From positions 1 through 9,830 of the forward strand of contig JAGQKX010000018.1 in NCBI GenBank assembly GCA_020429905.1: DNA of 9,830 nucleotides, read 5' to 3'. Position numbers and translations under genes: made by a program. Within the stretch, counting starts at the first letter, position 1. Every line of letters starts with the position of its first letter. The stretch is from a candidate division WWE3 bacterium (GTDB lineage Bacteria; Patescibacteriota; 4484-211; JAGQKX01). Of this stretch, positions 3,559 through 9,355 are shown one piece after another. Below the pieces are notes generated by a model that had not been told where the DNA came from, did no database searches, and saw only the letters and a list, made by a program, of their open reading frames with translations.

Positions 3559-3587
3559 TTGATATTCAATATTTTTTCGGATATAAT
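3559..3587 (+). promoter_or_regulatory. Consensus housekeeping-sigma promoter of the first large-RNA unit
   Basis: TTGATA (3559-3564), a 17-nt spacer, and TATAAT (3582-3587). The predicted start is near 3594. It is preceded by an imperfect inverted repeat, CCCCA...TGGGG (3544-3558), which recurs before the second unit. The spacer sequence differs between the two units while its length is the same, as expected if the promoter itself is under selection. Confidence 0.88.
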
Positions 3588-3593
3588 GCGGCC

Positions 3594-4290
3594 ACATTTC
3601 TTGCCTCATTCGCGGCAAGTTTTTTATGTACGTTAACAACCGACTCACATTTTACCCGCGATGATAGGGGAGATAGCGACATTTATTGTGTCTCTGTTTT
3701 CCCTATCATCTTTCCGCTTTTACCAGCGGAATCGGGATTTCCTCTTTTTTGATATATTCATCAATTCACATACTTCTTCCTATTTCCCTACGGGGAGCCT
3801 GGGGGGAGAGCCAAATCTGTGGCCGATCTCTGCTGCAGCCTCGTGAATCGTATGAATACACACTGATACATCACTGAGTATCTCTCAGTAATTTGAGATG
3901 ATGTGTCGTTCTGTTTGTATGTGTACATAACACGTACAAAACGCTTGATACCGATTTTTGGTATCCGTCTATGGGCACACACCCATACCATAGATGCGAA
4001 TCATGTCTTTGGCGACGAAGATAATGAGGAGATACAGTGTAGAGGACACTGTAGGATCAATTCGAGTTTGACGGTGAATGCGATTTCGGTCGCGGGTACT
4101 GTCACGAAGTACAGCCGTCAGGCTGTCGGTAGATCCGACACGGTAATCTGAGACGTGTGTGACGTTTCGGAACCCAATCATTGTCATAATGATTGCTTCT
4201 TTGACCGCGGTTAAAGAAGAGAAGTCTATCTGGGTAGTTTTCTGGATAGCCACCCTAATTCGTCTGAATTTTGGTGTGTTGTTGACTGAG
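3594..4290 (+). ncRNA. Large structured RNA leader, copy 1 (about 690 nt)
   Basis: No conserved reading frame lies between the promoter and the Shine-Dalgarno of the 427-aa gene. The stretch is homologous to 5774-6460. Bases 3576-3750 match the second copy with 7 differences and no indel, and 4241-4287 is identical. Helices seen include: 3600-3605/3614-3619 followed by six T; 3660-3669/3701-3710 (10 bp); 3712-3717/3726-3731; 3866-3872/3900-3906 enclosing 3873-3878/3884-3889; 3914-3924/3930-3940 (11 bp); 3947-3952/3960-3965; 4006-4011/4016-4021 capped by GCGA; 4034-4040/4046-4052; 4080-4084/4089-4093 capped by TTCG; 4111-4116/4121-4126; 4147-4155/4163-4171; 4175-4182/4188-4195; 4196-4202/4213-4219; 4226-4231/4244-4249; 4251-4254/4273-4276. 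Many covary with copy 2. The class is not one I recognise. It may act in cis on the downstream gene or as a separate RNA. Confidence 0.85.
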
Positions 4291-4323
4291 TAAATTTCTG
4301 TAGTTTTTGACAAGGAGTAAGTG

Positions 4324-5607
4324 ATGAACAAGCAAAATCCATTTGCAAAGTTAGGACTGGACGGTGATATGTTGGCCATGCTTGCTGAACAAGGTGTTCA
4401 GTTCGGCCAGTTGGGCGAACTTGATGCCATGATGGGTGCCATGAATTTTACCAGTGAACCCATCCACGATTTTGGCCAGCATGAGCTGGATCTTAATCTG
4501 GAAGGGTGGAGTGGTACACACAACTGTCAGGTCCTCCTGACCACGCGTCACATGGGCAACCATATGTTGTTATTCGCTCGCGGTATGACCACGATGGCAC
4601 TGGAAATTCATGTTCTGGATGCCGATGAGTCAACAACCGCCGACGAGTTCGAGGCGGGTCTGGACGAAGAGTTGGAAGCCATGTTGGCCGAAGCCGAAGA
4701 GACAATGGCCGGTTTGCCGGAAAACGATCTCCCCGGTGATGGACTTGACCTGGATGAAGAGCCGGAAAATCAACCGCTCGATCCAGTGATCGTCCTGAAC
4801 TTTGGGCGATTTGACATCTTCCATGGCTATCGGACCATTCAATTGATGCTTCAGTTCAGCGGTATACCCATCAGTGAAGATGTCATCACGGCGTGCGGCA
4901 TGTTTATGCTACGCGGCGAAACGGCCGAAGCACTGGATCGGTACGGACACGCCATCGCCTATTTTGGCGGCATGGAAACCGTAGCCGAAATTTTGGCCGC
5001 AGCCGTTCCCGAGACACTAATTGAGCATGTCCTGTCCCACATCATCCAGGATAATATGAAACCCTGGATGCTCACGCAGGAAGCAGTGCAAAAGACTGTG
5101 ACCTGGGAAGAAGAATGGACCTTCTACGGCTGTCTCAGCCCGGCTGAGTACGAAGATCTGAAGGCCCATCGTGAAGCCGTCTTGGCGCCGTATCAGGAAC
5201 CGATTGACGCTTTCGTTCAGTACATGCTTCAATTTATCACCGACGATGACATCCCATTTCATCTGATTGGCACCGCTGCTGACGGGATGAAAAAGGACTT
5301 TATCGAAGGGCTTATCATGGCGTTGGAGCGTATTCCGGCTGAAAAGCAGTCCCCGGTACTGGTACTTTCACTGGCATTAACGATTTCACTTTCCAAAGCT
5401 GAAAAATCGCAAATGCGTCGCAATGAAGGCAACATTACGATTCTAAATGGGGTCTTATCAGAGGCTACCGACTGGAGCCTTAACTGGTACGATGCCCATG
5501 GCGGCGCTACGACCAGTGACCGCGCCTGTCGGACGTTTGTCCGTCAGAACGTATATGCGTTTCCCAATTTGGAGGTTGTTGATCAACTTCGTTACGGCCC
5601 GATGTAA
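4324..5607 (+). CDS. Uncharacterised acidic protein, paralogue 1 of a three-member local family
   Basis: A 427-aa soluble, acidic protein without signal peptide or membrane segment; I do not recognise the family. I chose ATG 4324 because AAGGAG (4312-4317) lies 6 nt upstream, exactly as in the second paralogue; a GTG at 4321 is too close. Residues 99-150 form an Asp/Glu-rich insertion absent or shortened in the paralogues. Blocks shared with the 382-aa protein are ELDLNLEGW (54-62), RTIQLMLQF (170-178), YFGG followed by AAAVPETLIEHVL, W-x-FYGCLSPAEY (265-275) and the C-terminal QLRYG. The pattern suggests a beta-rich N-terminus and a helical C-terminal half. Its GC content is visibly higher than in the flanking genes, a possible sign of transfer or of high expression. 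The gene has its own promoter, structured leader and terminator. Confidence 0.88.
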   Translation: MNKQNPFAKLGLDGDMLAMLAEQGVQFGQLGELDAMMGAMNFTSEPIHDFGQHELDLNLEGWSGTHNCQVLLTTRHMGNHMLLFARGMTTMALEIHVLDADESTTADEFEAGLDEELEAMLAEAEETMAGLPENDLPGDGLDLDEEPENQPLDPVIVLNFGRFDIFHGYRTIQLMLQFSGIPISEDVITACGMFMLRGETAEALDRYGHAIAYFGGMETVAEILAAAVPETLIEHVLSHIIQDNMKPWMLTQEAVQKTVTWEEEWTFYGCLSPAEYEDLKAHREAVLAPYQEPIDAFVQYMLQFITDDDIPFHLIGTAADGMKKDFIEGLIMALERIPAEKQSPVLVLSLALTISLSKAEKSQMRRNEGNITILNGVLSEATDWSLNWYDAHGGATTSDRACRTFVRQNVYAFPNLEVVDQLRYGPM

Positions 5608-5679
5608 ATCGGCCGTTTTAATCGCTGTTGAGATATAACTTTCGAGAACCTATGGCGAATAAATCGCGATAGTTAGTGT

Positions 5680-5711
5680 GGGCCTACCTGGATTCAGGTA
5701 GGCCCTTTTTT
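5680..5711 (+). terminator. Strong intrinsic terminator after the first paralogue
   Basis: An 11-bp perfect stem, GGGCCTACCTG (5680-5690) with CAGGTAGGCCC (5695-5705), a 4-nt loop GATT, and six T (5706-5711). It closes the first unit, so the second RNA copy depends on its own promoter at 5739. Confidence 0.95.
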
Positions 5712-5738
5712 ATTGCCCAAAAAACCCATACTATGGGG

Positions 5739-5767
5739 TTGAATTACACGCGTAATTCGGATATAAT
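5739..5767 (+). promoter_or_regulatory. Consensus promoter of the second large-RNA unit
   Basis: TTGAAT (5739-5744), a 17-nt spacer, and TATAAT (5762-5767), with a predicted start near 5774. The perfect inverted repeat CCCATA-C-TATGGG (5725-5737) lies just upstream of the -35 and could be an operator; the first unit has a one-mismatch version. Confidence 0.9.
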
Positions 5768-5773
5768 GCGGCC

Positions 5774-6460
5774 ACATTTCTTGCCTCATTCGCGGCAAGT
5801 TTTTTATGTACGTTAACAACCGACTCACATATCACCCGCAATGATAGGGGAGATAGCGACATCACATGTGTCTCTGTTTTCCCTATCATCTTTCCGCTTT
5901 TACCAGCGGAATCGGGATTTCCTCTTTTTTCGTTTGTTAGTTTTTTTCACTCCATTCCATCCTTCTTCCCATACGGGAGCCTGGGTGGGGAAGCCAATTC
6001 TGTAGCCAATCTCTGCTGCAGCCTCGTGATAAAAACTAGCCCTATATACATCGCCCTGTATCTCTGGGCACTGTGAGATGATGTATCCCTTTTTTCAGAA
6101 TCAGTGTTTTACTGATCCTGATCTTTTGATATCTTCAGATATCCCACCATGTTCGCACATTTGACATGGTAGCTATCCCTGTGTTTGGCGACAAGCATAA
6201 GGGTGTGAGGTGATGTAGAGGACATCACTGGGTTATCGAGTTTGACGGCGAGCAATTTCGATTGCGCGTACCGTCTCGAAGTACAGCCGTCAGGCTGTCG
6301 GAAACCCAAGACTGGTGAACTTTGTGAGGTGTGATCACAGAGAGCCCTACCGACTTCTGGTCGTGTAGCATCCTAAGTGTATCTGAGGATGAAAAGTCTA
6401 TTCAGGAAGTCTTCTGGATAGCCACCCTAATTCGTCTGAATTTTGGTGTGTTGTTGACTT
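5774..6460 (+). ncRNA. Large structured RNA leader, copy 2 (about 690 nt)
   Basis: Homologue of 3594-4290. Matching helices, many with compensatory changes, are: 5780-5785/5794-5799 plus six T; 5841-5849/5881-5889; 5892-5897/5906-5911; 6046-6052/6080-6086 enclosing 6053-6058/6064-6069; 6100-6105/6111-6116 extended by 6096-6098/6118-6120; 6128-6133/6138-6143; 6146-6152/6164-6170; 6177-6180/6200-6203 and 6182-6187/6192-6197 with a GCGA loop; 6210-6216/6222-6228 with loop AGAGG; 6244-6248/6271-6275; 6252-6256/6261-6265 with a TTCG loop; 6283-6288/6293-6298; 6320-6327/6335-6342; 6347-6354/6360-6368 (one bulge); 6369-6374/6386-6391; 6398-6403/6416-6421; 6423-6426/6445-6448. No terminator separates the RNA from the ORF, so RNA and mRNA start as one transcript unless processed. 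Confidence 0.87.
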
Positions 6461-8746: not shown

Positions 8747-8822
8747 GTTCTTTTTACACATCCATACATCATCTCAACAATAAAAACTAATCTATTCCTT
8801 TCATATCGGTTGATATATTGCG

Positions 8823-8851
8823 TTGACAGATCAAAACATTGAAGGTATAAA
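8823..8851 (+). promoter_or_regulatory. Near-perfect consensus promoter in the right-hand gene-free stretch
   Basis: TTGACA (8823-8828), a 17-nt spacer, and TATAAA (8846-8851). The start is expected near 8858, 5 nt before a small ORF. The transcript would run to the terminator at 9034, about 177 nt, unless antitermination occurs. Confidence 0.85.
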
Positions 8852-8862
8852 CAGGGTAGTTT

Positions 8863-8964
8863 ATGAATAACCAACCAACACGAAACGAACTCAAGACCCT
8901 CCGATACGGATCCACACATCAGTGGCAATCAATTATGTTTGTCATTATTGTGGATACTAACTGA
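8863..8964 (+). CDS. Possible 33-codon ORF (leader peptide candidate)
   Basis: An ATG-TGA frame encoding 33 residues: a polar N-terminal half (MNNQPTRNEL...) and a hydrophobic stretch IMFVIIV near the end. It begins about 5 nt after the predicted transcription start, so it would be translated nearly leaderless, like other genes here. The TGA lies one base before the 5' arm of an attenuator-like hairpin, which is what makes it notable. There is no run of one amino acid as in classical biosynthetic leaders. It could be chance in an AT-rich small-RNA gene; coding status is uncertain. Confidence 0.35.
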   Translation: MNNQPTRNELKTLRYGSTHQWQSIMFVIIVDTN

Positions 8965-8965
8965 C

Positions 8966-9034
8966 GGGAGGTCTGAAGATAAACGTAACTTAGAAGAATA
9001 AAGACCTCCCCCAAAAAGGGAGGTTAATTTTTTT
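8966..9034 (+). terminator. Intrinsic terminator with competing upstream arm (attenuator-like)
   Basis: The terminator is ACCTCCC (9004-9010) with GGGAGGT (9018-9024), loop CCAAAAA, then TAA and seven T. The same C-rich segment also pairs over 9 bp with GGGAGGTCT (8966-8974) as AGACCTCCC (9002-9010). The two hairpins exclude each other, the layout of a transcription attenuator. The downstream gene would be the M20 peptidase. Confidence 0.75.
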
Positions 9035-9050
9035 AGGGACCTTGATAAAA

Positions 9051-9340
9051 AAATAACTCAGACACATGGGTTATTCACTCGTGCACATAGCAATACGTGT
9101 ATAAGCGGGTTACTCATATGAATGCGAGGACTCAGTGTGAGTAACTTTTGCATGTGAACAATTTATAAGAATGCCCAAAAGGTAGCGAGGAAACACATGC
9201 TGACTACAAAGATGGCGATTACCTGGAATAATCGCACACGTAAGGAGGTGTCCACATTGGTGGATAAAATACACTGGATGGAAAGGGGAGTGGTGAGTTT
9301 ACACGTCTCATCTACTCTCCTTTTCCACTAGTGAAACCGT
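9051..9340 (+). other. Hairpin-rich gene-free stretch upstream of the peptidase gene
   Basis: No convincing gene. Several stems occur in order: ATAACTC with GGGTTAT (9051-9072 region), GTTACTCA with TGAGTAAC (9109-9116/9138-9145), GCGATTA with TAATCGC (9215-9221/9229-9235), and a long imperfect stem of about 18 bp (9280-9297/9307-9326) with no T tract. AAGGAGGTG at 9242-9250 is a full match to an anti-Shine-Dalgarno. The only frame it could serve is a 24-25-codon TTG or GTG start at 9257 or 9260, ending at the TAG at 9329. The stretch may be a structured leader or a separate small RNA. Confidence 0.45.
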
Positions 9341-9355
9341 ATCTAGATTGACTTA

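Follow-up and report, generated by a model that had tools for sequence, protein, structure and literature searches.

A large structured RNA that forms the 5' leader of various genes and is likely to act in cis, setting the expression of a regulon, is put forward here for a candidate division WWE3 bacterium (assembly GCA_020429905.1); judged from sequence, this reading has about an even chance of being right. Two of its copies, leaders A and B, lie on contig JAGQKX010000018.1 (C67 below), within the 9,830-nt stretch that was analysed as a whole, called the window; positions without a contig or locus name are counted within it. An earlier note on this DNA had described A and B as two tandem copies of a ~690-nt structured RNA whose interior diverges but keeps its helices and loop motifs. 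A large structured RNA was borne out, compensatory changes are present in its core, and a covariance model built from the two copies, as the note had proposed, found more of them. The number was too low: seven copies are detected by covariance model and there are probably nine in all in this genome.

The model of the A/B core (R1) brought in three copies beyond A and B, and a later one (R2) a sixth and then a weaker seventh, the last within an already known leader. The latest model, R3, to which two of the seven were themselves added, recovers all seven at E 9e-14 or better in the 812 kb of the genome: A and B on C67, C, E and F on contig C103 (locus L011), D on C7 (L012) and H on C117 (L119). 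The eighth leader, G on C84 (L038), was located via a promoter common to most copies. It carries the elements P2, P3 and PK1 described below and folds with a z score of -9.7; its core scores just E 0.19 with filters off. A probable ninth copy on C4 (L127), recognised by eye, starts at a contig end that falls within the core, and the covariance model does not report it at E<=5. F is likewise truncated at its 5' end. A further R3 match in the same genome (C33, E 3.1) was taken as chance. Because the assembly is 76.7% complete and was partly masked in the sequence analysed, further copies may be missing. The leaders are ~460-730 nt long, and every copy lies directly upstream of a gene, always in the orientation of that gene, which places conserved structure directly 5' of the start codons of several operons on the same strand.

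Counted from just 3' of the -10 box to the last base ahead of the start codon, the two leaders of the window are ~730 (A) and ~720 nt (B), near-equal as the earlier note had it and slightly longer than its ~690 nt. Their promoters match (TTGATA-17-TATAAT at 3559-3587 and TTGAAT-17-TATAAT at 5739-5767), and the 7 differences in 175 nt that had been counted at the 5' end are recovered for 3576-3750 against 5756-5930. The identical run towards the 3' end, given as 47 of 47, is present and is 48 nt long (4240-4287 = 6412-6459). Aligned in full, the leaders occupy 738 columns with 539 identities, 26 gap columns and 16 indel runs, a similarity far above that of the proteins that they precede (29%). 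The interior has diverged with its helices kept, as had been claimed: 9 of the 34 pairs of the A/B core differ on both sides, and 100% of the cells are paired. The description of the leaders as gene-free also stands, since no common reading frame runs through them and the open pieces that they share are short and track nucleotide similarity. Both fold very stably (z -10.0 for A, -8.2 for B), and for neither did any of 20 dinucleotide shuffles fold as well.

The core is made up of a hairpin, P6, and a three-way junction of helices Pa, Pb, Pc and Pd, and in A it lies ~290 nt beyond a pyrimidine motif of the 5' domain. The alignment of seven cores follows a model made from five of its rows (E and H lie outside those five) and leans to structure. 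In it, standard pairs fill 93.0% of 200 cells and 20 of 29 pairs have changed on both sides. None of 500 shuffles, which do not preserve relatedness, reaches any of five core-pairing measures, and sliding the partners by 1-3 columns leaves 28-41% paired. When five copies were counted, further pair types were the one measure that did not beat the shuffles (127 of 500 reached it). Two helices of the first, two-copy structure (R1) were dropped; the three-way junction takes their place in the further copies.

The 5' domain is laid out alike in all seven leaders for which the start is available (A, B, C, D, E, G and H): a long hairpin P2, then P3, then the pyrimidine motif. P2 and P3 come from single-sequence folds; when the arms of these seven leaders are written out by hand, pairing holds at 219 of 223 positions, and in six of the seven (not in G) the arms are found in order by an automatic check. 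Three alignments of this domain (A10-A12) had their arms misplaced and were dropped. Comparison of the copies supports the predicted 5' domain of P2 and P3, the P6 hairpin and the three-way-junction core. The sequence GTACGTTAACA has nine matches in six of the eight genomes of the class. Six of the matches lie outside the bacterium's own genome; two of these appear to fall in coding sequence and one (L102, identical in place to L039) has, by eye, a hairpin like P2. There, in a genome of the same order (G003), a long GGGG...CCCC hairpin stands between GTACGTTAACA and a gene, an arrangement that resembles the leader 5' domain, again by eye.

The two parts appear to be joined by a long-range pairing, PK1. 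In each of the same seven leaders the motif behind P3 is complementary to the P6 loop, with letters that differ: TCCTCT/AGAGGA in A and B, CCTCAT/ATGAGG in D, TCCCAT/ATGGGA in E, TACCCT/AGGGTA in G, TCCTCA/TGAGGA in H and, with one G-U pair, CCCTAC/GTGGGG in C. The Watson-Crick runs were summed over six leaders, B being excluded because it nearly duplicates A, and F and the C4 copy having one strand only. The true assignment gives 33 against a permutation mean of 23.2, a sum reached by 2 of 720 permutations (the true one included) and by none of 5000 random-window sets, although these figures are not a blind test because the windows were chosen after the match had been noticed. The comparison supports a prediction that PK1 docks the 5' domain onto the P6 loop.

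Most leaders are also headed by the same promoter. The pattern CTATNGGN{0,1}TTGN{19,21}TATAAT has six matches in the genome and none in a reversed control, and each of the six lies ahead of a leader (A, B, C, D, E or G), which makes six of the seven with their start in hand. Promoter-like sites in the region as a whole are no commoner than in shuffles (5 against a mean of 6.7). The sequence around the -35 box is palindromic (for example, AACCCATACTATGGGGTT), and the palindrome may be an operator. Among 192 related genomes, 16 have matches to the pattern and none a control match. Outside the bacterium's own genome, 17 of 27 matches belong to one family (f39), all seven searched genomes of which have them; among the matches listed, those of f39 precede genes with short leaders, and several in other families fall in coding sequence, likely by chance.

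Further occurrences of the promoter were seen at contig ends and in distant relatives. Contig C83 ends 12 bases beyond a one-mismatch match, and another one-mismatch copy (L121, C99:74-109, minus strand) is followed by a short leader (~70 bases) that is broken off where the contig stops. Distant genomes of the phylum again have CTATAGGTTG-N20-TATAAT before small orphan genes with short leaders (L047-L064, e.g., L060:941-2100). One genome (G050) has three such genes in succession at intervals of ~550 bases, every one of them with a promoter to itself.

Locus A runs from promoter through leader and gene to terminator; at B, a weaker terminator-like site and a third gene stand between the gene and the terminator. 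Between the core and the start codon of A and B, and at the leader 3' end, there is no terminator-like site. Given the order of promoter, leader, gene and terminator, the leader would belong to the mRNA and work in cis. The coordinates are collected in Table 1.

Table 1. Features of the window. Extents of the leaders are approximate, and structural elements are predicted.
Feature	Start	End	Strand	Remarks
Promoter of leader A	3543	3587	+	Palindrome around ACTATGGGGTT over -35 TTGATA (3559-3564); -10 TATAAT (3582-3587)
Leader A	3594	4323	+	~730 nt; transcription start unmapped
P0 5'-terminal hairpin of A	3600	3619	+	Terminator-like; six T follow
P1 5' strand of A	3632	3640	+	Partner 4278-4286; predicted closing helix
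P2 long hairpin of A	3660	3710	+	
P3 hairpin of A	3712	3731	+	
PK1 5' strand of A	3740	3745	+	TCCTCT, complementary to P6 loop
Core of A	4031	4134	+	P6 (4034-4052) and three-way junction Pa-Pd
PK1 3' strand of A	4041	4046	+	AGAGGA in P6 loop
P1 3' strand of A	4278	4286	+	Predicted closing helix
Ribosome-binding site of gene A	4312	4317	+	AAGGAG, read from sequence
Gene A	4324	5607	+	427-aa orphan protein
Terminator after gene A	5680	5711	+	
Promoter of leader B	5723	5767	+	Palindrome AACCCATACTATGGGGTT over -35 TTGAAT (5739-5744); -10 (5762-5767)
Leader B	5774	6493	+	~720 nt
P0 hairpin of B	5780	5799	+	Terminator-like; six T follow
P1 5' strand of B	5812	5820	+	Partner 6450-6458; pairing probability 0.96-1.0
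P2 hairpin of B	5841	5890	+	
P3 hairpin of B	5892	5911	+	
PK1 5' strand of B	5920	5925	+	TCCTCT
Core of B	6207	6306	+	P6 (6210-6228) and three-way junction
PK1 3' strand of B	6217	6222	+	AGAGGA in P6 loop
Ribosome-binding site of gene B	6482	6487	+	AAGGAG, read from sequence
Gene B	6494	7642	+	382-aa paralogue of A, 29% identity in alignment
Site between gene B and third gene	7687	7715		Weaker, terminator-like
Third gene	7739	8692	+	317-aa, more distant paralogue, 18% identity to A in alignment
Terminator after third gene	8711	8746	+	

The genes headed by the other copies are of different kinds. Leader D precedes a gene for a 125-aa orphan that lies downstream of hrcA and hsp20. Behind E is a 132-aa protein whose DUF1097 match stays below cut-off, behind F are five small genes that Pfam does not match, behind G a UPF0182 protein, and behind H a 535-aa and a 197-aa orphan; C is followed by only 63 codons before the contig ends. 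Ten proteins scanned against PHROGs, NCBIfam and PADLOC had no convincing match. A homologue search returned the query alone, and with the alignment of the three paralogues it added one protein of the window's own contig (7996 and 7998 candidates scored); protein A has no match in viral contigs. The AlphaFold2 model of protein B is poor (mean predicted local distance difference test score 49.8). The UPF0182 protein of leader G occurs in its own genome only, one of eight in the class, so that this leader is not comparable across genomes. The dedicated protein partner that the earlier note had suggested is therefore not borne out: the copies head genes of different families, mostly orphans, and a shared control device fits better than an RNA-protein pair.

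In outline, the palindrome would be the operator of one regulator, and the leader would fold while being transcribed, with PK1 closing it into a compact body. The conserved loops and the docking pairing point to a body that binds something; the core might read a protein or a small molecule and thereby alter either translation or mRNA lifetime. A bolder version can be offered tentatively, as it is more doubtful than the cis-acting leader itself: these would be giant regulatory RNAs of a new class, with one bacterium's fast-evolving orphan-gene regulon under a shared 460-730-nt RNA. Its 5' domain would dock onto the three-way-junction core through the re-made pairing with the loop, and the core would refold on binding its signal. 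The refolding depends on a second core fold, in which the 5' strand of Pb is also able to pair with a stretch of Pd. In six cores this pairing has a lower energy than 91-98% of shuffles, and an energy as low is reached by 70 of 5040 permutations.

Several observations weigh against the cis-regulatory reading. Firstly, the RNA was found in no genome but its own. The DNA of leader A occurs in 1 of 192 related genomes, R1 and R3 (the latter at E<=5) each match 1 of the 8 genomes of the class, and R2 matches 1 of 379 across the phylum, under stricter filters that lose weak matches; the single genome is in every case the bacterium's own, and this holds for the phylum-wide search that the earlier note had proposed. 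R3 finds nothing in the 27 genomes of the order of G050, where the promoter palindrome is present, in a search without a positive control. An exact core pattern gave 34 stretches in genome contigs and a looser one 19 in viral contigs, none of them scored by R1 at the matched place; a longer exact pattern gave none in viral contigs, and phage records gave none. The lists of relatives contain no other genome of the same family, and the true spread may be wider. Secondly, the ribosome-binding site is predicted to be closed in A, C and H and open in B, D, E and G (closed in three of seven), so there is no uniform switch at this site. Thirdly, the hairpins P0 of A and B are identical, terminator-like and placed right after both transcription starts. 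With such a hairpin at the very start of both leaders early termination is possible: P0 could end most A and B transcripts right there, and the pair could also serve as an attenuator. Finally, the closing helix P1 is clear only in the folds of A and B and is not general in the other leaders, H lacks the common promoter, and support for the alternative core fold is weak and does not extend to E.

Among the other explanations, the best placed is that the leader senses nothing and acts passively, as a stabiliser or an enhancer of translation whose stable 5' body protects the mRNAs of abundant proteins. The 5'-terminal hairpins, the very stable folds and the strong ribosome-binding sites agree with it. 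So does the G+C content at third codon positions, which is 0.50-0.59 in the seven first genes against 0.32-0.46 in 11 neighbours on the same contigs (p 6e-5, in a small hand-made sample) and is compatible with strong expression. These neighbours were picked by hand in place of a codon baseline of 131 open reading frames, which was dropped with 77,783 of its 181,207 bases masked. A plain stable hairpin would suffice for such protection, however, and the conserved three-way junction and re-made PK1 far exceed that, so we consider the explanation possible but unlikely.

It is more improbable still that the leader, cut off or terminated ahead of the gene, works on its own in a ribonucleoprotein as OLE RNA does, its placement next to genes following from shared promoters. 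Its size and complexity are those of the large ornate RNAs and there is a terminator-like hairpin at the 5' start, but the copies lie within a few bases of the ribosome-binding sites of different genes, and A and B have no terminator-like site at the 3' end. We see little likelihood in a mobile or self-splicing element, present or former, that spread and landed before genes. There are many copies in one genome and the searches made confine them to it; against this, no Rfam intron or ribozyme matches, no transposase or reverse transcriptase lies beside the copies, and the orientation is always that of the gene. A recent tandem duplication or an assembly artefact with a functionless RNA, as the tandem position and nearly identical ends of A and B might suggest, is already contradicted by diverged copies on C67, C103, C7 and C117 (by model) and C84 (by promoter and PK1), by the compensatory changes and by the lack of a shared frame, and has next to no probability.

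A reduced genome here devotes several kilobases to copies of a single fold that have diverged, and a different gene goes with each of them. Few bacterial molecules are as poorly understood as the large ornate RNAs, and these copies are natural replicates for structure work; because they are placed before genes, their function is directly testable by reporter fusions. They also reveal a group of orphan genes with a common promoter palindrome that recurs in distant relatives.

The RNA matches no family of Rfam 15, a match being counted at or above the curated cut-off of the covariance model (locus L127 lay outside these scans). In the window, at E<=1, a tRNA alone passes and one miRNA match is sub-threshold. 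Leader A at E<=10 has eight matches and L119 at E<=1 two, all sub-threshold, and L011, L012 and L038 have none at E<=0.5. This agrees with the earlier note, which saw no fit to OLE, GOLLD, ROOL or HEARO RNA. Directly upstream of leader H, L119:4410-4542 (minus strand) gives a weak match to the Rfam phenylalanine leader (28 bits, cut-off 55). Other small RNAs may be encoded at window 8820-9350, which has no Rfam match at cut-off, and at L011:4440-4855; both are intergenic stretches of strong hairpins, ending in one with AAAGG(G)AG...CTCCTTTTC. A different repeated hairpin element is marked by GCATTGGTAAGCATGCC, exact at L011:4770-4786 and L111:1951-1967 alone among the genome loci read, and exact in six viral contigs as well.

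A literature search found no paper on such leaders, a weak negative, as the sources were seen in part and some of the search ranked general riboswitch papers. To our knowledge, RNAs of this size have so far been known as stand-alone ornate RNAs, with one or few copies per genome. OLE RNA is similar in being ~600 nt long, highly structured and located beside protein genes; it differs in having its own partner proteins and a membrane complex, whereas the leaders precede varied gene families, have many copies per genome and match no Rfam family. No OLE-associated membrane protein appeared by name in Pfam scans of the window and leader-headed proteins, which used no OLE-specific profile. GOLLD and ROOL are stand-alone RNAs, often in phage or plasmid settings. 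They share with the leaders large ornate structure with long-range contacts; the leaders differ in preceding chromosomal genes and in having no Rfam match. HEARO/omega RNA is a structured bacterial RNA near protein genes, as is the raiA-motif RNA (ModT). Neither matches here by Rfam, and among the same Pfam-scanned proteins there is no IscB- or RaiA-like protein and no nuclease domain. Riboswitches, T-boxes and protein-binding leaders are cis-acting structured leaders shared by several operons of one genome, and in this respect they resemble the RNA described here, which is three to seven times longer and does not uniformly hide the ribosome-binding site. We thus rate it as a new RNA fold that is used as a cis leader.

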